Below, in pieces: positions 1 through 11,500 of a stretch of 12,498 nt of DNA (its first letter is position 1; each line of letters opens with the position of its first letter). The notes under the pieces were generated by a model. The model searched no databases and was not told where the DNA came from. It was given only the letters and a program-made list of their open reading frames with translations. Source of the DNA: J088 sp003695505 [NCBI: Candidatus Dadabacteria bacterium] (GTDB lineage Bacteria; J088); assembly GCA_003695505.1 (NCBI GenBank), contig RFIY01000181.1:1-12498 (forward strand), read 5' to 3'. Position numbers and translations under genes: made by a program.

Positions 1-149
1 CCGATCAGGATCCCGCGTGGAGCGAGCGCCAATGCTTCATCAACAGACAGATCGTCGTTGCGCCGCACCTCGACCTGGGATCCGAGCTCGAGAAGATATT
101 GCACGAGGTTATAGGTAAAGGAATCATAGTTATCGATGACGAGGATCAT
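1..149 (-). CDS. trpG: Anthranilate synthase component II (glutamine amidotransferase), 5' part only
   Basis: The reverse strand from the ATG at 149 gives a frame beginning [19 protein letters not shown], which is the near-invariant N-terminus of the TrpG/PabA class I glutamine amidotransferases. Only the first 49 codons are in the window, so the catalytic Cys-His-Glu triad lies beyond the left edge and cannot be checked. In the family, this subunit releases ammonia from glutamine for the chromorismate-binding TrpE subunit in the first step of tryptophan synthesis, in the cytoplasm. Its ATG overlaps the TGA of trpE in an ATGA arrangement, which points to translational coupling and equal subunit production. 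PabA (folate pathway) has the same N-terminus and some bacteria use one protein for both. The partner TrpE makes trpG the natural name. Confidence 0.93.
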
Positions 150-1630
150 GACAGCGTTCCGAACCGGTTGCCGACCATTTCAACCGCGGCAAACAGCGCC
201 GCCGCCTTGTTGATGGTCTCCTTGTATTCCAGCTCCGGCCTGGAATCGGCAACAATGCCGGCGCCGGCCTGCAACAGCAGTGTCTCACCATGATGGAAAA
301 ACGTGCGAATCAGGATACCCGTATCCATGTCTCCGGCGTAATCGAAGTAGCCGATGGCGCCAGAGTACGGCCCACGGCGCACCGGCTCTGTCTCCGCAAT
401 CAGTTGCATGGCTTTCACCTTCGGCGCACCCGATACGGTTCCCGCGGGAAAGGTCGCTGCCAGCAGATCGACGGCCGTCCAGCCGTCCGCCACACGCGAT
501 TCTACGTTGCTGACGATGTGCATGACGTGGCTGTAGCGTTCAATCACCATCTTTTCGGTCAGGCGAACAGACCCGGGCACGCTGACCCGGCCAAGATCGT
601 TGCGCCCCAGATCGACCAGCATCACATGCTCGGCGATTTCCTTCGGATCCGCCAGCAATTCGCGCTCCATTGCCAGATCCTGTTCCGGCGTGCGGCCACG
701 GCGCCGCGTTCCCGCAATCGGGCGCAACGTCGCGCGCGGGCCCTGCTTGCGAACGAGCACTTCCGGGCTTGATCCAATCAATGTACCTTCGTCGAGTTCG
801 AGATAAAACAGATACGGACTCGGATTGATCAGCCGTAACGCGCGATAAAGCCAGAAAGGGTCACCGCGATAGGCGGATTCGAACCGCTGGCTTAGCACAA
901 TCTGGATCGCATCACCGGCGAGAATGGCTTCGCGCAGGGTGTCGACACCGGCCTCGAACGAGGCCCGGCTCTGCACCGGAGCAAACTCGTTCGCCGGTTC
1001 GGGCTCAGCGGGCACCAGCAGATCGGATGTCCGTAGCAGCGCGTCGACAGCTTCGATCCGGGCCTCGGCATCCGCCAGCGAACGTTCCGCATCATCCGAC
1101 GGGTGCGCGATGGCCACGATCTCCGTCGCATGACGTACATTGTCGAAAATCACCGCGGTATCGCACTCAACGAACACACCGTCTGGAAAGGGCGTCAGGT
1201 CTGCCAGGGGATCGGGCACGGTGGGTTCGATCCAGTGGACGGCACCATACCCCAGAAATCCAACCCAGCCACCGACGAATCCGGGGCGCTCTTCGGGACT
1301 GGTCGGGAACAGCGGCGCGTCCGGCGTAGTCAGACGCCGCAATGCATCGAGCGGCGTGCCACCCGCCGGGAGTTCCAGTTGCTCATCGTCCAGCCGCGCT
1401 TCACCGTTGCGCATCAAACGCACGATGCGACGTGGCTGCAGACAGATGATCGAATTTCGCCCCCAGCGCTCACCGCCTTCGACACTTTCGAGCAGCGCCA
1501 TTGCTCCGGCGGGACGCAATTTCAGGAATGCGGAAACCGGCGTATCGGTGTCGGCCAGCACCGTTCGCGACACAATCGTACGATGCCCCGATGCGAGTGC
1601 ATCGAGCAATTGTTGTCGATCGATTGCCAT
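146..1630 (-). CDS. trpE: Anthranilate synthase component I
   Basis: This 494-residue protein converts chorismate and ammonia to anthranilate, the committed step of tryptophan synthesis. The N-terminal domain carries LLES (46-49), and NPSPYLF lies at 269-275; both match the tryptophan feedback site of known TrpE enzymes, so feedback inhibition is expected. The chorismate-binding domain shows the family signatures PIAGTRRRG (304-312), [11 protein letters not shown] (335-345), [12 protein letters not shown] (393-404), YSGAIGYFD (422-430) and [10 protein letters not shown] (471-480). The length is typical. A purine-rich AAGAGG stretch lies just ahead of the ATG, though very close to it. The gene is followed by trpG with a 4-base overlap. 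I saw no Trp-rich leader peptide or attenuator upstream: the 69 bases to the divergent hydrolase gene are too short for a standard one. PabB is the alternative, but the feedback motifs favour TrpE. Confidence 0.97.
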
Positions 1631-5503: not shown

Positions 5504-6283
5504 TCAGGCGTCGAATTCGCTCCGGGAAAGCTGCTGCTCGAACAGGCCGGTGCGCGTTTCGTCCCCTGCTTCGGGCAGATGCGACACGCTGACACCAGTG
5601 GTCACGGCGAACGTCGCCGGATCGCCGTCAAGCAGGCGGTCGAATTCGACTCCGATGCTGTAGCCCCCCTCGGGCAGGCGCTGCTTGCGGCGCACGTTCG
5701 CGCGCACGTCGATATACGCTTCGTCACGGGGCGAAAAGACGCGCATCCTGACCGTCGAGAACAGGATCGGATCCGGAATGACGCCGCCAAGGCCGGATCC
5801 AGAGATGTTCTCGGTGTATCCTTCGATGGTGCGCGACTCGAGATAGATCCAGAACTTCAGCCGTACCCGTTTCCGTGTCGAACGACCCAGGCATTCGCCC
5901 ATCACTTCCTCAAGCTGATCCGCTGAAAACGGACGCACGAGAATGCGGTCGATGTCCCGTTCGACGACCCGTTTCGCGCGCTCTTCCGTGTCGGGATCCG
6001 GCAACAGCAGGGCTGGTATTTCGTTCGCCGGATCGTTGCGCAGCAACTCCAGATAAAATCGGAGTTTCTCTGTCAGCCCGGTTCGGAAGTCGACCGCGAC
6101 AAGCCCGATGTCTCCCTGCAACCTGCGCAACAGCAGTTTGTAGGTGTCAAGATGATGAATCATCAGCCAGCGCAGCCCGGCCGATCGTTCCAGAGGCTCG
6201 ATGTATTCAGCCGCGGACCCGACCGACTCCACGATGATCGCGACCGGACCGCGCTTGCCGTTTGCGCCGTTCACTTCAGCCAT
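5504..6283 (-). CDS. Degenerate receiver-like plus PilZ domain protein
   Basis: With the ATG at 6283 the protein has 259 residues. Residues 12-132 have the alternating strand-helix pattern of a response-regulator receiver. Asp65 (VAVDFRTG) sits where the phosphorylated Asp would be, but the usual acidic pair after strand 1 is ES (19-20), the Thr/Ser after strand 4 is Pro, and the invariant Lys is Arg (VRPF, 116-119). It is therefore probably a pseudo-receiver. Residues 136-220 form a PilZ domain with both c-di-GMP motifs intact: R137-x3-R141 and N159-x-S161-x2-G164. It likely binds c-di-GMP and acts on a partner in the cytoplasm or at the membrane. The start overlaps the last 13 bases of the Yip1-like gene in another frame, so the two are probably translated together. 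An in-frame extension up to 6469 exists but is Arg-rich shadow sequence inside that gene. Confidence 0.87.
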   Translation of the reverse strand: MAEVNGANGKRGPVAIIVESVGSAAEYIEPLERSAGLRWLMIHHLDTYKLLLRRLQGDIGLVAVDFRTGLTEKLRFYLELLRNDPANEIPALLLPDPDTEERAKRVVERDIDRILVRPFSADQLEEVMGECLGRSTRKRVRLKFWIYLESRTIEGYTENISGSGLGGVIPDPILFSTVRMRVFSPRDEAYIDVRANVRRKQRLPEGGYSIGVEFDRLLDGDPATFAVTTGVSVSHLPEAGDETRTGLFEQQLSRSEFDA

Positions 6284-7143
6284 GGCACCGTTTCCAGTCC
6301 TTCGAGCGCAACCGGGCCTGCCGTCACGATGGCGGCGACGATCAACGCCCCGATCAGCACCAGCGGCAGCAGCGCCAGGATGAAAGGTGCGGCTGCGAGC
6401 GCACTCGTTCGAGCGCGCGACAGATCGTACCAGACGGATGCACCCGTCGCGGCCAGCCAGACCCAGCACATCGCCGCCGCAAACGACCCCACGACGGGGA
6501 CGACCTTGAGTGGCGACGCGGCATTGGCCAGACCGGCGAGCACGAGCAGCTCAATGAATCGACCACCGACGCCAAGCAACCGCAACACGAACCACAGTAG
6601 CACGGCCTGGCTGAGCAGTCTCGCGACCGGCGTCAGGACGATCCATGTGAGCAGCAGGCGTCCGGCGGATTCGGCCTCCAGCAGACCGGCACTGAGCCGC
6701 CGCATGACAATCAGTTCCCCCGGCCACGCCAGTATTTCGCCGATCATCACAAAAAGCACACCCAGGACGAGCAATTGCGCCGGTGGCGCCATCTGCAGTC
6801 GGCGAAATGCGGCTTCGGGTCGCCGCAACAGGTTCCACCAAATGTCGAGTGGCGCCTCCACGACGGCCTCGGTGGCGCCTCCGGCTGTCAGCTCGCCATA
6901 CTCGGACTCCGGAGTCGTTTCGACCTCGACTCGGGTGCGCACACCGGCCCGGCCCAGCGCTTCCATCCACTCTGTCGCGCGCTGAAACGTGAACGCTCCG
7001 GGAACTTCACGCGGAAACAATTCCGCATACGGCAATTGCGCGATCTCTTCGCCGAAGATACGCTGCAAAAATCCGCGCACGCGCGCCTCATCGGACTCTG
7101 GAATCACCCCTTCGAGGTGAAGCCTGTAAGTTACGGTAGACAT
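6271..7143 (-). CDS. Yip1-family-like integral membrane protein with soluble N-terminal domain
   Basis: This 290-residue protein has a soluble N-terminal part (1-~98) of beta-alpha-beta character that I cannot assign. A hydrophobic C-terminal part follows, with about five membrane segments at roughly 122-140, 162-182, 183-207, 212-232 and 252-274. The segment order and the WWNLLRRPEAAF stretch ahead of the first one match bacterial Yip1 (PF04893-type) proteins, whose biochemical role is mostly unknown. The overlap with the downstream receiver/PilZ gene suggests a two-gene operon in which a c-di-GMP sensor could act on this membrane protein; that is inference. No strong ribosome binding site is seen before the ATG at 7143. 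It diverges from a small membrane protein gene 89 bases away. Confidence 0.75.
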   Translation of the reverse strand: MSTVTYRLHLEGVIPESDEARVRGFLQRIFGEEIAQLPYAELFPREVPGAFTFQRATEWMEALGRAGVRTRVEVETTPESEYGELTAGGATEAVVEAPLDIWWNLLRRPEAAFRRLQMAPPAQLLVLGVLFVMIGEILAWPGELIVMRRLSAGLLEAESAGRLLLTWIVLTPVARLLSQAVLLWFVLRLLGVGGRFIELLVLAGLANAASPLKVVPVVGSFAAAMCWVWLAATGASVWYDLSRARTSALAAAPFILALLPLVLIGALIVAAIVTAGPVALEGLETVPWLK

Positions 7144-7188
7144 CGGCGGTCATGCTACCATGGCGGTACCCGTTTTCGGCCCGTCGCT

Positions 7189-7204
7189 GCCGATCCGCAT
7201 CGGC
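7189..7204. repeat. Perfect 6-bp inverted repeat between divergent membrane-protein genes
   Basis: GCCGAT (7189-7194) and ATCGGC (7199-7204) are separated by the four bases CCGC. The repeat lies in the 89-base gap between the Yip1-like gene and the small membrane protein gene. It could be an operator or a short hairpin in the leader of the plus-strand gene. There is no T tract, so a terminator is unlikely. A chance repeat of this size is quite possible. Confidence 0.3.
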
Positions 7205-7232
7205 GTTGCAATTTCCTCGGGAGCCCCGACTG

Positions 7233-7574
7233 ATGCAGACTGTCTTCTGGATTTTGTGCGCCCTCGCGACCTGGATCGAAGTGCGCCTGGCACTTGGCGT
7301 CTGGCACGCCTGGGAATCGGCCTCACTGTACTGGCTGGCAGTGCGCCTGCGGGGCGACCCGCTCGTTCAGTTTCTTGTGGCCGAATTCGTGCTGCTGCGA
7401 TTTGCGCTCTTCCTGATTGGCCTGCAATTGTCAGCCAACCGTCGCTACCGGGGTGCGGCAGCGTGGCTGGCGTTTGTGCCCGTATTCGGCGCGCCGCTGG
7501 CATACGCCTGCGCCATCGAGCTGGGCACGCCGGCAAACCGGGATCACGCCGACAAGCGCAGCACTTCCCGGTAA
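7233..7574 (+). CDS. Small hypothetical membrane protein
   Basis: With the ATG at 7233 this is a 113-residue protein. It has hydrophobic stretches at about 3-20, 47-66 and 74-96, so two or three membrane passes are likely, with an Arg-rich turn (NRRYRG, 69-74) that would face the cytoplasm. The tail (97-113) is polar. I recognise no family. A GGGAG motif ends nine bases ahead of this ATG, whereas the in-frame upstream ATG at 7152 would add an Arg/Pro-rich segment with no membrane-protein character, so the later start is preferred. The reading frame crosses the end of the convergent thpR gene, with the last 31 bases shared between the strands. Confidence 0.65.
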   Translation: MQTVFWILCALATWIEVRLALGVWHAWESASLYWLAVRLRGDPLVQFLVAEFVLLRFALFLIGLQLSANRRYRGAAAWLAFVPVFGAPLAYACAIELGTPANRDHADKRSTSR

Positions 7575-8164
7575 CAGGTTCCGGTATCCGGGTCTCGTTC
7601 CCGGCAATACAGCGTTGGTGCACCACAGCGCAACGCCAGACCACGCACGGACTGCGCCTCGGCCCAGGCGATAGCCCGGTGCCGCACCGGCATCGGCGCG
7701 TTGCGCGAAATCCGGGCGATCGTGACGTGTGGGCGCGGGCCATCTCGATGCATCGTGACGCCGAAATCGCGTAATTGTCGGGCACACGTCCGCATGGCCG
7801 CCGCGACACGGGCTGCGGCCTCATCTGGTTCTGGTTCGACCGCCAGTGCGCTGAACCGCGTCACTGGCCCCATTGGCACGACGCGTGCGGCGGACAGAGC
7901 CGCGTGATCCCGCGCCAGGTCGAGGAGGTGGTCGCGGATGCGATCCCACGCCCGCTCGGCATCAGCGCGGGATCGGCGCCCCAGAAACGCCAGCGTCAGA
8001 TGCAGATCGAGCTCATGAAGAAAATGGACGCCTTCCGGCGGCGGTGTCAATGCGCGTAGAATGTCCGCGCCGTCGCGCACCGGAAGCGCGAGAAACCAGG
8101 TGCGCAGCGCCTCGTCTTTCGGATCAGCCTGCGTCGAACAACTGCTCGACGATGAACCAGCCAC
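7544..8164 (-). CDS. thpR: RNA 2',3'-cyclic phosphodiesterase (LigT/2H family); start uncertain
   Basis: The frame shows both active-site motifs of the 2H phosphoesterases: HLTLAFLG (H-x-T) and, about 90 residues later, HVTIAR (H-x-T). The opening strand RTWFLALPV is like the FFALDLP-type N-terminus of bacterial ThpR/LigT. The enzyme opens 2',3'-cyclic phosphate ends of RNA. No ATG lies near the expected N-terminus. The GTG at 8164 is listed (206 residues), with AGAAG nine bases ahead, but it adds about 19 Ser-rich residues not expected in the family. A CTG at 8107, directly before RTWFL and preceded by GACGAGG, would give 187 residues, the usual family length. Either way the gene is linked to the upstream unknown gene: the GTG start overlaps it by 41 bases, the CTG start lies 16 bases beyond its stop. 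Function is secure; start is not. Confidence 0.85.
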   Translation of the reverse strand: MAGSSSSSCSTQADPKDEALRTWFLALPVRDGADILRALTPPPEGVHFLHELDLHLTLAFLGRRSRADAERAWDRIRDHLLDLARDHAALSAARVVPMGPVTRFSALAVEPEPDEAAARVAAAMRTCARQLRDFGVTMHRDGPRPHVTIARISRNAPMPVRHRAIAWAEAQSVRGLALRCGAPTLYCRERDPDTGTCYREVLRLSA

Positions 8165-9221
8165 CCTGGGCAACTTCTTCGGCAACCGACCGAAAGACGA
8201 CCCCCTCCTGATCAAACCGCGTCGCCCAGAAGCCCTGGGCAAAAAAATCACACCAGATCGTGGCTCCGGGGGCGTGTAGAACAAGATTGGCGGCCGGCGT
8301 ACCAACCAGCGGCTCAAAACCCTGCCGAACGAGACCAAGCAACTGCGCCAGCGAAGAATCGATCTCCTGCTGCGAATGGCCATCCCGTGGCATCGAATAG
8401 ACGACGCGCGGCTGCCGCTGAAACCAGATGTGATCCCATTCTGTACCAAATTCTGCAAACCGGGCGCGAATCGCCCGGTCAATACGACGGTACAACTGCG
8501 GGCGCAGCATGGCATAGCTCGTTTCGCGACGAACCGAAGCGTTGGAGCGCAGGTCGTATTCGTTCGCACCACCCGAACTCTGCAGCAGTGTTTCGCGCAA
8601 CTCATTCAGCGTCTGCTGGAATCGCTTTTGTTCGACACTGCGCGGCTTGCGATACAGCAACGAGCGTTCACCGTCGATCCGTTGAAAGCCGAAACGCTCA
8701 CCGTGAAAGTCGAGATTGAATCGTGACAATGGCCGATCGCGGAGGACATCACCAAAGACCCCGTTGACCTGCGCAACCAGCCCCGTCACCGATCGCAATC
8801 CGACCTGGCCACCCGCCGCCGCGAGCAACTCGTCGCGATCCAGAAACGCAATCCAGCCCTTGTCGTCGAGGTCGGGCAGGTCCCGAGTCACCGTCTGCCG
8901 GACCAGCTCGGCGAGGTCCCGGTTGCGTTCCGTGCGTTCACGCGAAAGCGTGTCCTCGCCGCTACGCGCCTCTGAGCGACCGGGCATCCAGGCAACGACG
9001 ACCGAATCGCGCCCTACGAGACGCGAGACCTCGTCACGTTCGGCGAGAGGCGTCCCGTCGTCGAACCGGAGCACGGATACGCGGCCATCTTCGAGAGCGC
9101 ACTCAGCAACCCCGCTATAATGTCCGCGATGAATACTCTGAAGAAGGTCAAACAGCTGCCGGCCGTTCAACTGTTGCAGAAACGGCGCCTGGACCCAACG
9201 GTCGAATGTCGTCGTGCTCAT
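8124..9221 (-). CDS. Unknown protein, paralogue A of a divergent pair
   Basis: This 365-residue cytoplasmic-looking protein has no signal peptide or membrane segment, and I do not recognise its family. It is clearly paralogous to the divergent plus-strand gene. Shared blocks include QAPFL (11-15), VVAWMPG (75-81), GLVAQVNG (147-154), RFGF (176-179) and TIWCDFFAQGFWATRFD (321-337). Residues 9-80 resemble the DUF4388/PATAN layout: a helix, then G-x-x-E, then strands with a DG turn. Residues 122-210 and 262-340 each read as strand-strand-helix-strand-strand-strand, like a Roadblock/LC7 module; this is by-eye fold guessing. The ATG at 9221 is chosen because AAGGG lies ten bases ahead; a GTG at 9230 would add three residues but sits too close to that motif. 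The downstream thpR gene overlaps or nearly abuts the end. Confidence 0.82.
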   Translation of the reverse strand: MSTTTFDRWVQAPFLQQLNGRQLFDLLQSIHRGHYSGVAECALEDGRVSVLRFDDGTPLAERDEVSRLVGRDSVVVAWMPGRSEARSGEDTLSRERTERNRDLAELVRQTVTRDLPDLDDKGWIAFLDRDELLAAAGGQVGLRSVTGLVAQVNGVFGDVLRDRPLSRFNLDFHGERFGFQRIDGERSLLYRKPRSVEQKRFQQTLNELRETLLQSSGGANEYDLRSNASVRRETSYAMLRPQLYRRIDRAIRARFAEFGTEWDHIWFQRQPRVVYSMPRDGHSQQEIDSSLAQLLGLVRQGFEPLVGTPAANLVLHAPGATIWCDFFAQGFWATRFDQEGVVFRSVAEEVAQGGWFIVEQLFDAG

Positions 9222-9301
9222 TGTGGCCACACCCTTCTGATAACTATGGTAACAGGCAATTTACTCTTGTTGCATTTTCGAGACGGTTTCAGGGGCCAGC
9301 C
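9222..9301. promoter_or_regulatory. Shared start region of the divergent paralogues
   Basis: Only 80 bases separate the ATG of paralogue A from the GTG of paralogue B. The centre (about 9236-9280) is A+T-rich compared with the flanking genes and must hold control signals for both genes unless they start within each other. GATAAC and GGTAAC lie nine bases apart (9238 and 9247). I could not fix a convincing -35/-10 pair on either strand. Confidence 0.4.
9291..9295 (+). promoter_or_regulatory. Ribosome binding site deciding the GTG start of paralogue B
   Basis: AGGGG lies six bases ahead of the GTG at 9302. It sets the start there rather than at the upstream in-frame ATG at 9206, in agreement with the alignment to paralogue A. 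Confidence 0.65.
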
Positions 9302-10372
9302 GTGAGTGTCGCTGCGGGCTATGAAAGCTGGCTGCAGGCGCCGTTTTTGCAGCCATTCCACGGTAAGGCGTTTTACGAGCTGCTGAAAGCCATCCGCGAC
9401 GGCGCCGTGACCGGCGAGGCCGAATGCGCGATCAGCGGTGGCCAGGTTCGTGTTCTGCACTTTCAGGACGGCAAACCGACGGGTCAGCGCGAAACGATCG
9501 CGGCGCTGGTCCGCGAACCACAGATCGTCGTCGCCTGGATGCCAGGAAAAACGGCGCGCGATGACAGCGCCACGCTGGTCAATCGATCGGCCATCGTCGA
9601 CCTGATCCAACGGCAATGCAGCGGTATCGCCGATGGCGAGTCTGGCTGGCTGCAGGTGTACTACGGCAACGAACGGCTCTACGCGCAAGGCGATGCAGGT
9701 ACAGCGGGCTTCGCATCCGGTCTCGTCGCACAGATCAACGGCACGTTTCGCGAAATCGTCGCGGACCAGACGCTGCGGCGGTTTTCGCTCTCTTCTCCGG
9801 TGTCGAGATTCGGCTATGAGTCGCTCGGCGGCAGCTACAGCGCATTTTACCGGTGCGCCCCCGAGGAACAGGCCGACATGCTGACGCGACTGGACACGCT
9901 GCGCAGCGACCTGTCTGAAATGTCCACCTACAGTGGACCGTTCGAAATGCGCTCCAGCGCGGGCGGGCCGGGCGAAGCAGAATACTGTCTGATCCGCCCT
10001 TCCCTCTACCAGAAACTGGATGCAGCGATTCTCAATCAACTTGAAGAAACCGATCTTCCGTGGAGCGCCTTCTGGCTCCAGGGTGACGCAGGCATCACCT
10101 GGCAGCACCGCCGCGGAACTGATCCGATGCAACAACGGGCAGATCCGTTCGAAGCGCTCGTCGAACTCGTGCGTCAGGCGTTCGCCGACGACAGCGGTGG
10201 GCCATCCGACATGGTGCTGTACACCAATGCGCTAACGATCTGGTGCGATCTGTTCGACGAGGGATTCTGGGCGATTCGCCTCGACGACGCCGAACAGGGC
10301 TTCCGGCGCAGAACGTCCGCTCTGGCAGCACGGGTACATAGAATGATGCGGCGCGCGTTCTCGCGTTCCTGA
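9302..10372 (+). CDS. Unknown protein, paralogue B of a divergent pair
   Basis: With a GTG start at 9302 this is a 356-residue soluble protein. It is collinear with paralogue A from the first residues: QAPFL (12-16), VVAWMPG (76-82), GLVAQING (140-147), RFGYES (169-174) and TIWCDLFDEGFWAIRLD (312-328). The N-termini align within one residue, which supports this start, as does AGGGG six bases ahead of the GTG. The in-frame ATG at 9206 would add 32 residues with no counterpart in the paralogue and would run into the start of the divergent gene. Domain guess as for A: PATAN-like 10-80, then two Roadblock-like modules at about 115-200 and 255-330. The last 25 residues are Arg-rich and differ from A. 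The family is not recognised. It ends 25 bases from the convergent TPR-like gene, with no terminator seen. Confidence 0.82.
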   Translation: MSVAAGYESWLQAPFLQPFHGKAFYELLKAIRDGAVTGEAECAISGGQVRVLHFQDGKPTGQRETIAALVREPQIVVAWMPGKTARDDSATLVNRSAIVDLIQRQCSGIADGESGWLQVYYGNERLYAQGDAGTAGFASGLVAQINGTFREIVADQTLRRFSLSSPVSRFGYESLGGSYSAFYRCAPEEQADMLTRLDTLRSDLSEMSTYSGPFEMRSSAGGPGEAEYCLIRPSLYQKLDAAILNQLEETDLPWSAFWLQGDAGITWQHRRGTDPMQQRADPFEALVELVRQAFADDSGGPSDMVLYTNALTIWCDLFDEGFWAIRLDDAEQGFRRRTSALAARVHRMMRRAFSRS

Positions 10373-10397
10373 CGCACGGCTGACGCCGAATGTCCGC

Positions 10398-10763
10398 TCA
10401 GACTGCCTTGCGCAGCGGCGTCACTTCGGCACCCGCGCGACGTTCCACCTGACCGACGGCCTGGCGGCGTACGTCCTCGATGCTTGTCGTCGCCATGATC
10501 CGCGCGACGGTCAATGCCTCATCGAAGCGGTTGCTCTGGGCAAACAGGTGCAATGCCCGCGCGTAAGCCTGCACCATTTGTCGGGTGCGTCCGTGCGTGC
10601 GGCAATGGTTGGCAACCTGCATCCAGAGCTGCGGGTTTTCAGGATCTTTGCGAACGCGCTCACGCAGTTCCATCAGCTTCGTCCGCCAGTCCGACTGGAC
10701 ACGGTCCGCGCCGAGCCGCAAGAGTTTACCCCAGTCCTGTTGACGCGATGTCGTGGTCGGCAT
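10398..10763 (-). CDS. Small TPR-like protein
   Basis: With the ATG at 10763 the protein has 121 residues, is mostly helical and has no signal peptide. Residues 43-76 fit a tetratricopeptide repeat (NPQLW, then the VANHCRTHGRT turn, then MVQAYARAL), and 77-95 begin a second, incomplete one (SNRFDEALTVA). TPR units bind proteins; no partner can be named. Residues 28-40 (TKLMELRERVRKD) are a charged helix. AGGAGG at 10777-10772 lies eight bases ahead of the ATG, a textbook site. A longer frame from a GTG at 10823 has only weak signals and a low-complexity Gln/Glu/Ser/Ala N-terminus, so it is not preferred. A CRP-type operator and -10 element upstream suggest control by cAMP. It is convergent with paralogue B. 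Confidence 0.78.
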   Translation of the reverse strand: MPTTTSRQQDWGKLLRLGADRVQSDWRTKLMELRERVRKDPENPQLWMQVANHCRTHGRTRQMVQAYARALHLFAQSNRFDEALTVARIMATTSIEDVRRQAVGQVERRAGAEVTPLRKAV

Positions 10764-10771
10764 GCTGCTGG

Positions 10772-10777
10772 CCTCCT
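10772..10777 (-). promoter_or_regulatory. Canonical Shine-Dalgarno deciding the TPR-protein start
   Basis: The minus strand reads AGGAGG here, eight bases before the ATG at 10763. It is the strongest ribosome binding site in the window and argues against the longer GTG start at 10823. Confidence 0.85.
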
Positions 10778-10843
10778 GTGGTTCGGCAGGTGTCGATGCT
10801 TCCTGTCCTTGTAGATCGGACACCTGCGTGTTTCGTTAACCAC

Positions 10844-10849
10844 AGTATG
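10844..10849 (-). promoter_or_regulatory. Candidate -10 element of the TPR-gene promoter
   Basis: The minus strand reads CATACT. The start of transcription would be near 10837, about 74 bases ahead of the ATG. There is no good -35 hexamer; the CRP-type dyad occupies that place instead, as in class II activator-dependent promoters. Confidence 0.45.
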
Positions 10850-10869
10850 GCCGCTGATCGACCCGCGAT

Positions 10870-10889
10870 GCTGTGACTTCGATCACAGC
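10870..10889. promoter_or_regulatory. Perfect CRP/Vfr/Clp-type operator
   Basis: The sequence is GC-TGTGA-CTTCGA-TCACA-GC: both conserved half-sites of the CRP family with the correct six-base centre, in a seven-base perfect inverted repeat. Its centre (10879.5) is about 42 bases upstream of the start predicted from the CATACT -10 element, the spacing of class II CRP activation. It lies in the 176-base gap between the SRPBCC and TPR-like genes, upstream of the latter. As RNA it could form a hairpin, but no T tract follows on either strand, so a terminator is less likely. The regulator could be CRP, Vfr or a Clp-type protein. Confidence 0.65.
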
Positions 10890-10939
10890 CCCTGAGTTAC
10901 CAGGCCGCGATGCCTCGCTGCATCACTGACACGGGACGC

Positions 10940-11449
10940 TCAGCGCGACCAGCGCGGCGCGAAACGCACGAGTTCGTCGGCAAAGCGACCGAGCGATTTT
11001 TTCATGACCGGCCCCATCAACGGATGGATCGTAGCGAACCAGCCGCGTGGCTCATAAGCGACGATCCAGCGCAGCCGGCAGCGGTCATCATCCAGCGGCG
11101 TGAGCTGATAATCTTCGCCAAAGGCGCGCCAGACGGGCCGCGTCGAGCCGCGCAAGCAAAATGCCATGCGACGCCCCTCTTCCCACGCAATGAATAGCTC
11201 ATCAACGGAAAGACCACCACTCAGATCGACGATTCGCGTCGTGCCGACGCCGAACGGTTCGGCGCTGGTCCATTCCACGCGTCGAATGCCGCCAGCCCAC
11301 TTCGGCCAGGCGTCCGCATCGCGGAAAATCGCGAACAGCGTCTCGGCCGACACCGGGATCTCGCGATCATAGACGAAGCGCACCGGCGCGATGTCGAAGT
11401 AGTCCATCGAAAACGTTTCGCACGGCACATATGAAGCTTGTCGCGCCAT
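10940..11449 (-). CDS. SRPBCC-superfamily (START/polyketide-cyclase-like) protein
   Basis: With the ATG at 11449 the protein has 169 residues. Residues 22-165 fit the SRPBCC helix-grip fold. The first strand is followed by IPVSAETLFAIFRDADAWPKWAGGIRRVEW (31-60, the usual V-x-A-x-x-x-F motif with its W-P-x-W), then strands at 70-76, 82-88, 94-101, 109-117 and 123-133, and a long C-terminal helix (about 146-162). Such proteins bind hydrophobic ligands; the ligand is not evident. No membrane segment is certain; GWFATIHPLMGPVM (136-149) is only mildly hydrophobic. AGGAG five bases ahead supports this ATG, while the in-frame start at 11482 has no such site. It diverges from a DUF1214-like gene and shares a dyad-containing control region with it, which suggests co-regulation. 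Confidence 0.85.
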   Translation of the reverse strand: MARQASYVPCETFSMDYFDIAPVRFVYDREIPVSAETLFAIFRDADAWPKWAGGIRRVEWTSAEPFGVGTTRIVDLSGGLSVDELFIAWEEGRRMAFCLRGSTRPVWRAFGEDYQLTPLDDDRCRLRWIVAYEPRGWFATIHPLMGPVMKKSLGRFADELVRFAPRWSR

Positions 11450-11500
11450 GGCATCTCCTGCCTTTCGCCGAACCCGGGGCACGATGAGATTACGCGCTCC

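Follow-up and report, generated by a model that had tools for sequence, protein, structure and literature searches.

The 12,498-nucleotide contig RFIY01000181.1 (C241; hereafter the window) belongs to a Candidatus Dadabacteria draft genome, J088 sp003695505, of 2.83 Mb and 84.5% completeness, and it carries two head-to-head paralogous genes, A and B, whose products are old, diverged copies of one another. The gene pair is real, and its family assignment is tentative. As our best guess, which we rate below an even chance, A and B may be a duplicated regulator, PATAN-like and Roadblock-like in its domains and dimeric or heteromeric in its assembly, of an MglA-type GTPase or of a type IV pilus motor.

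Coordinates and BLASTP confirm what an earlier note on this stretch had described, a divergent pair of paralogues of 365 and 356 amino acids with 80 bases between their start codons (Table 1). The two proteins are identical at 118 of 339 positions (35%), with 10 gap positions and an E-value of 2e-64; by part, and in the numbering of protein A, residues 1-85 are 44% identical, residues 94-216 32%, residues 241-345 35% and the final 20 residues 10%. The conserved blocks named in the note are all present in both copies (QAPFLQ, VVAWMPG, GLVAQ(V/I)NG and TIWCD(F/L)F-x2-GFWA-x-R), the spacing of the last one having been given slightly wrongly there. At the level of DNA, identity between the genes at the first, second and third codon positions is 0.50, 0.56 and 0.36, respectively, and synonymous sites are saturated, with the third base identical at 14 of 40 fourfold sites (those of shared A, G, P, T and V residues). 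From the lower agreement at the third position than at the first two, and from this fourfold agreement, it follows that the copies arose long ago and that selection has kept the proteins; conservation at the protein level stands over a saturated DNA background.

Collinearity and saturated synonymous sites are also the expected leftovers of any old duplication, and no second genome shows the pair kept together. A and B could be redundant or neofunctionalised duplicates that act apart, e.g., as homo-oligomers, with the head-to-head layout as a relic of an inverted duplication, and we place this not far short of an even chance; copies that are still adjacent after saturation hint, on the other hand, at a functional link. 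Such separate action concerns the pairing of the copies and not their fold, and it can be compatible with the other readings discussed here. The likelihoods that we give overlap, because joint or separate action of the copies is a question separate from that of fold. By analogy with known systems a heteromer of A and B is plausible, while the antagonistic pair that the earlier note also proposed found no support.

For the middle domain, structure models lend some, if weak, support to a Roadblock-like fold. AlphaFold, run on the two-row alignment of A and B, predicted for residues 94-216 of protein A a helix, two strands, a helix, three strands and a helix, and this is the order of elements in Roadblock domains. 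In Foldseek, the first 50 rows (E 1.2e-3 to 1.5e-2) include 25 MglB entries; nearly all of the others we take to be Ragulator/LAMTOR-type, archaeal Roadblock, dynein and Mon1-Ccz1 entries (some titles name only an assembly), and one row, TlpQ, is clearly a different protein. VIA-align placed MglB onto residues 90-200 with Z 8.6 and a root-mean-square deviation of 3.5 over 100 residues, and 11 of 991 chains reached Z >= 8 with a top row of Z 8.8; the program itself cautions that a search lacking any true match commonly peaks at Z 7-8.

The N-terminal segment is suggestive of a PATAN/DUF4388-like domain, as judged from profile comparisons. With hhalign, the two-row profile of residues 1-90 scored 23.1 against 35 DUF4388 domains (P 0.001, probability 20%), a score equalled by none of 200 column shuffles. 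With hmmsearch for DUF4388, the score of protein A was equalled by 7 of 2000 shuffled sequences and by 6 of 217 real open reading frames (ORFs) cleared of true DUF4388. When the Pfam model PF14332 was scanned over the genome itself, protein A received 11.7 bits (E 0.44), below the 25-bit gathering cut-off. As to the portion of the domain beyond the DG motif, this match spans profile positions 4-75 of 122 and the hhalign match 44 columns.

The C-terminal domain was modelled as a fragment, with a predicted helix, strands, a helix, three strands and a helix at a mean predicted local distance difference test (pLDDT) score of 48.5, and on this model it is possible that it represents a second Roadblock/longin-like domain. 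Longin, profilin and LAMTOR entries occur here and there in its Foldseek list, each non-significant, and the best hits in the fold searches of this fragment (Foldseek E 0.24, VIA Z 5.2) were not significant either. A comparison for internal duplication of the middle domain in this domain found no profile similarity between them. The conserved W/C/D/F block, in which the earlier note saw a structural core or binding site, lies on the last two strands of the predicted three-strand run, at the low confidence just given, and this fits a core without proving one.

Several results weigh against the regulator reading. The AlphaFold model behind the middle domain is poor (mean pLDDT 37, predicted template modelling score 0.29, two-row alignment), and Foldseek with this domain gave nothing below E 1e-3. 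The Robl_LC7 model (PF03259, gathering cut-off 23 bits) matched three places in the genome at E <= 10, none of them in the window; a Roadblock hmmsearch scored A and B no better than shuffles or real ORFs; and in hhalign of the middle domain against three Roadblock alignments, column shuffles did at least as well in 31, 35 and 67 of 200 cases. For the C-terminal domain against two Roadblock alignments, 93 and 98 of 200 column shuffles reached the score. Protein B alone showed no DUF4388 signal in hmmsearch, and it is absent from the list of the PF14332 genome scan. Also on this side, the strongest match of protein A in Pfam is to GAF_2 (PF13185), over residues 102-165, with 18.7 bits against a cut-off of 28.6 and an E-value of 0.0022. 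Because the Roadblock sequence tests all failed, A and B are not to be filed as members of the Roadblock family.

The GAF_2 match opens another route, by which the middle domain would be a GAF-type sensor following a PATAN-like N-terminus, and A and B would be diverged ligand-sensing signalling proteins instead of GTPase regulators. The same model matched the fragment of protein A at E 0.013, and a GAF-domain entry appears in the VIA list at rank 50 with Z 6.7. However, the match lies below its cut-off and protein B is unmatched, the three consecutive strands predicted after the second helix follow the Roadblock order, and Roadblock-type entries stand above GAF in both the Foldseek and the VIA list, so we regard a GAF sensor as unlikely. 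A Roadblock fold in A and B is still possible despite the failed sequence tests, because MglB and MglC share less than 9% identity and yet the same fold, according to PMC7949163.

At the level of sequence, the description of A and B in the earlier note as being of unknown family stands: searches of Pfam, NCBIfam, PADLOC and PHROGs gave no match of either protein above cut-off or below E 0.001, families of defence systems and phages gave none, with nothing below E 0.1, and sequence searches of the PDB returned nothing credible (best E 1, and a designed helical repeat at E 0.007). Two copies of the family were found in the genome, both within the window. Protein A as a query matched 1 of 145 genomes, its own; searching with the two-row profile of A and B at E <= 0.1 brought up 13 of 386 genomes, the own one and 12 others. 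Each count includes the own genome, the two sets probably overlap, and in the searched set no other genome stands for the phylum; genomes very close to it may be missing from the search. The 12 other genomes (of 385) contributed a single short and weak match apiece (E 8e-5 to 0.1), and 5 of the 12 matches cross stop codons. All of these are taken as chance, because on rescoring the loci reached 20.2 bits at the most and spanned no more than 100 of 366 positions. The best of them falls within an eRF1-type release factor, in its domain 3, and the second best lies antisense to a gene for topoisomerase IV subunit A; both were dismissed as relatives.

Scans of the genome contigs (genome_contigs) with N- and C-terminal patterns gave no credible relative of A or B, and neither the scans of viral_contigs nor tblastn against plasmids and phages gave a relative. 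In the phylum of G137, the one whose TrpE scored best, 0 of 18 genomes matched, and without a positive genome this empty answer shows nothing. The TrpE-like protein in question is encoded in the window at 146-1630 (-), with 497.8 bits for TIGR00564, just below the cut-off of 517.7, and among 144 other genomes the match with the highest score reaches 51% identity to it, as would suit an isolated phylum. A search for a 16S gene by which to place the organism found none. A survey for side-by-side copies, which the earlier note had suggested, was run here and located the pair in one genome only; by the terms of that note this speaks against its proposal of partners, but the searched set has only this genome for the phylum, and the scans had limits.

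A family restricted to this lineage and with a different or new fold, in which the PATAN and Roadblock likeness would be due to chance or to a common alpha/beta arrangement, would agree with the lack of a credible library or PDB sequence match, with the low confidence of the structure models and with the negative Roadblock sequence tests. On the opposite side, the N-terminal DUF4388 profile score exceeded all of its shuffles and the Foldseek list for the middle domain is very uniform. We consider such a family a serious possibility, though one that we would not call probable.

Returning to A and B as GTPase or pilus regulators, the genome encodes candidate partners elsewhere. On another contig (C237, L091, 2624-3944, +), a Robl_LC7 gene (55.8 bits) is directly followed by an Arf/Ras-type GTPase gene, and from their layout and sequence we read these genes as mglB-mglA; the NCBIfam MglB model gave the Robl_LC7 protein 67.2 bits, below its cut-off of 200. 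A second Robl_LC7 place is present, along with six DUF4388 places and three PilT matches above cut-off. One protein (contig C323, L090, 7276-8202, -) combines DUF4388 with MshEN, and its gene is some 5 kb away from a PilT gene and 3.6 kb away from an MshEN-T2SSE gene. On contig C148 (L007 and L009), two DUF4388 genes with open frames of 449 and 411 amino acids are adjacent on the same strand.

Across the matches listed from 145 genomes, DUF4388 and Roadblock matches start at most 6 kb apart in 11 of the 32 genomes that have both, against 0.67 expected under uniform placing. Gene neighbourhoods of this kind are already in print (PMC4316618, which credits Makarova 2006). In genome G115, a 239-amino-acid ORF (L084, 1117-1833, -) carries DUF4388 (Pfam, 88.8 bits) and then Roadblock on one chain, the Roadblock part scoring 36.1 bits (E 3.5e-10) with our own 31-sequence profile and being unlisted by the Pfam Roadblock model at E 0.001. 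This is the order of both domain types that we propose for A and B; unlike them, the G115 frame lacks a third domain, and it shows no significant BLAST similarity to them (best E 0.15). Searches of the open-access literature found no DUF4388/PATAN-Roadblock fusion, the papers that treat PATAN, MglA and roadblock together reporting gene neighbourhood and co-occurrence for PATAN, and likewise no tandem Roadblock protein and no divergent paralogous roadblock heterodimer.

Among known systems, A and B resemble MglB and MglC of the MglA polarity switch of Myxococcus xanthus, which also form a paralogous pair with a Roadblock-like fold, predicted in the case of the A and B middle domain. MglB is described as a homodimer, and according to PMC7949163 its paralogue MglC binds MglB at 2:4. 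Unlike A and B, with their greater length and further domains, the 58 single-domain MglB homologues of PMC4316618 have 129-179 amino acids, and A and B have no significant similarity to Roadblock profiles. MglB is usually gene-coupled to an mglA-type GTPase, whereas among the 12 window proteins scanned (besides fragments of A and B themselves) there is no GTPase or pilus gene near the pair, which adds to the points against the regulator reading. This coupling is not universal, as 328 of 749 MglB homologues are counted as uncoupled in PMC4316618. The N-terminal segment is similar to the opening portion of DUF4388 as found in PATAN/DUF4388 regulators such as PixG and PixE of Synechocystis; in contrast to these, the match is partial, occurs in protein A only and is below the Pfam cut-off, and no receiver domain was found in A or B with Pfam. 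Binding of PATAN domains to the PilB motor has been reported (PMC10519157), PixE-PilB1 binding is given as a hypothesis (PMC7690835), and Roadblock and longin proteins are often heteromeric regulators of GTPases (PMC9481161).

To hypothesize, A and B, as old and diverged duplicates, would go back to one signalling protein outside any predicted enzyme family, each of them combining an N-terminus like PATAN/DUF4388, a middle domain like Roadblock/LC7 and, as its third domain, an alpha/beta one. They would most likely pair, with each other or with themselves, via the Roadblock-like domain, and would serve as a regulatory platform for the genome's own MglA-type small GTPase, its type IV pilus motors or both, while the single common control region would set the ratio of A to B. 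It seems unlikely, although worth stating, that they make up a new family, from a phylum hardly sampled so far, with a PATAN-like and two Roadblock/longin-like domains per chain, whose divergent members form an obligate heteromer, Ragulator-like or MglB-MglC-like, that couples an MglA-type GTPase to a type IV pilus motor.

Table 1. Positions of genes A and B and of their proposed segments in the window.
Feature	Positions	Strand	Basis or remark
Gene A, protein P0001	8124-9221	-	ATG start, 365 aa; paralogue of gene B
Gene B, protein P0002	9302-10372	+	GTG start, 356 aa; paralogue of gene A
Intergenic region, 80 bases between the start codons of A and B	9222-9301		49% GC
PATAN/DUF4388-like segment, protein A, about residues 18-80	8982-9170	-	hhalign 23.1; PF14332 sub-threshold
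Counterpart segment, protein B, about residues 19-81	9356-9544	+	by alignment to A only
Roadblock/LC7-like middle domain (predicted), protein A, residues 94-216	8574-8942	-	low-confidence model, Foldseek, VIA-align
Counterpart middle domain, protein B, about residues 94-208	9581-9925	+	by alignment to A
C-terminal alpha/beta domain (predicted), protein A, residues 241-364, with the TIWCD-F-GFWA-R block	8130-8501	-	structure models
Counterpart C-terminal domain, protein B	9998-10366	+	by alignment to A

The start of gene B is uncertain, as its reading frame is open back to an ATG at 9206 that would overlap the start of gene A; the alignment of the paralogues begins at the GTG, and by eye an AGGGG ends 6 bases 5' of it. 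A scan of 7000-11500 for the sigma-70 consensus found no site, the intergenic region of A and B included. On the 3' side of gene A, on the same strand, lies a gene of the 2'-5' RNA ligase type (PF13563, 38.2 bits, above cut-off), and gene B faces a convergent gene whose TPR match in Pfam is sub-threshold. A gene for a PilZ-domain protein (PF07238, 29 bits, above cut-off) lies at 5504-6469 (-), some 1.7 kb from where gene A ends, adjoined by a gene for a Yip1-like membrane protein (sub-threshold); the PilZ gene may possibly mark a neighbourhood of cyclic di-GMP (c-di-GMP) signalling.

If the regulator reading is wrong, A and B are one among many orphan duplicates. In general, the interest of the pair is modest unless a confident structure reveals tandem Roadblock-like domains in a heteromer. 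If the regulator reading is true, the bacterial GTPase-polarity toolkit of MglA, Roadblock and PATAN would extend to a phylum with one genome in the searched set, and PATAN and Roadblock functions, which are often found in neighbouring genes, would here be joined on one chain and duplicated as a divergent pair.

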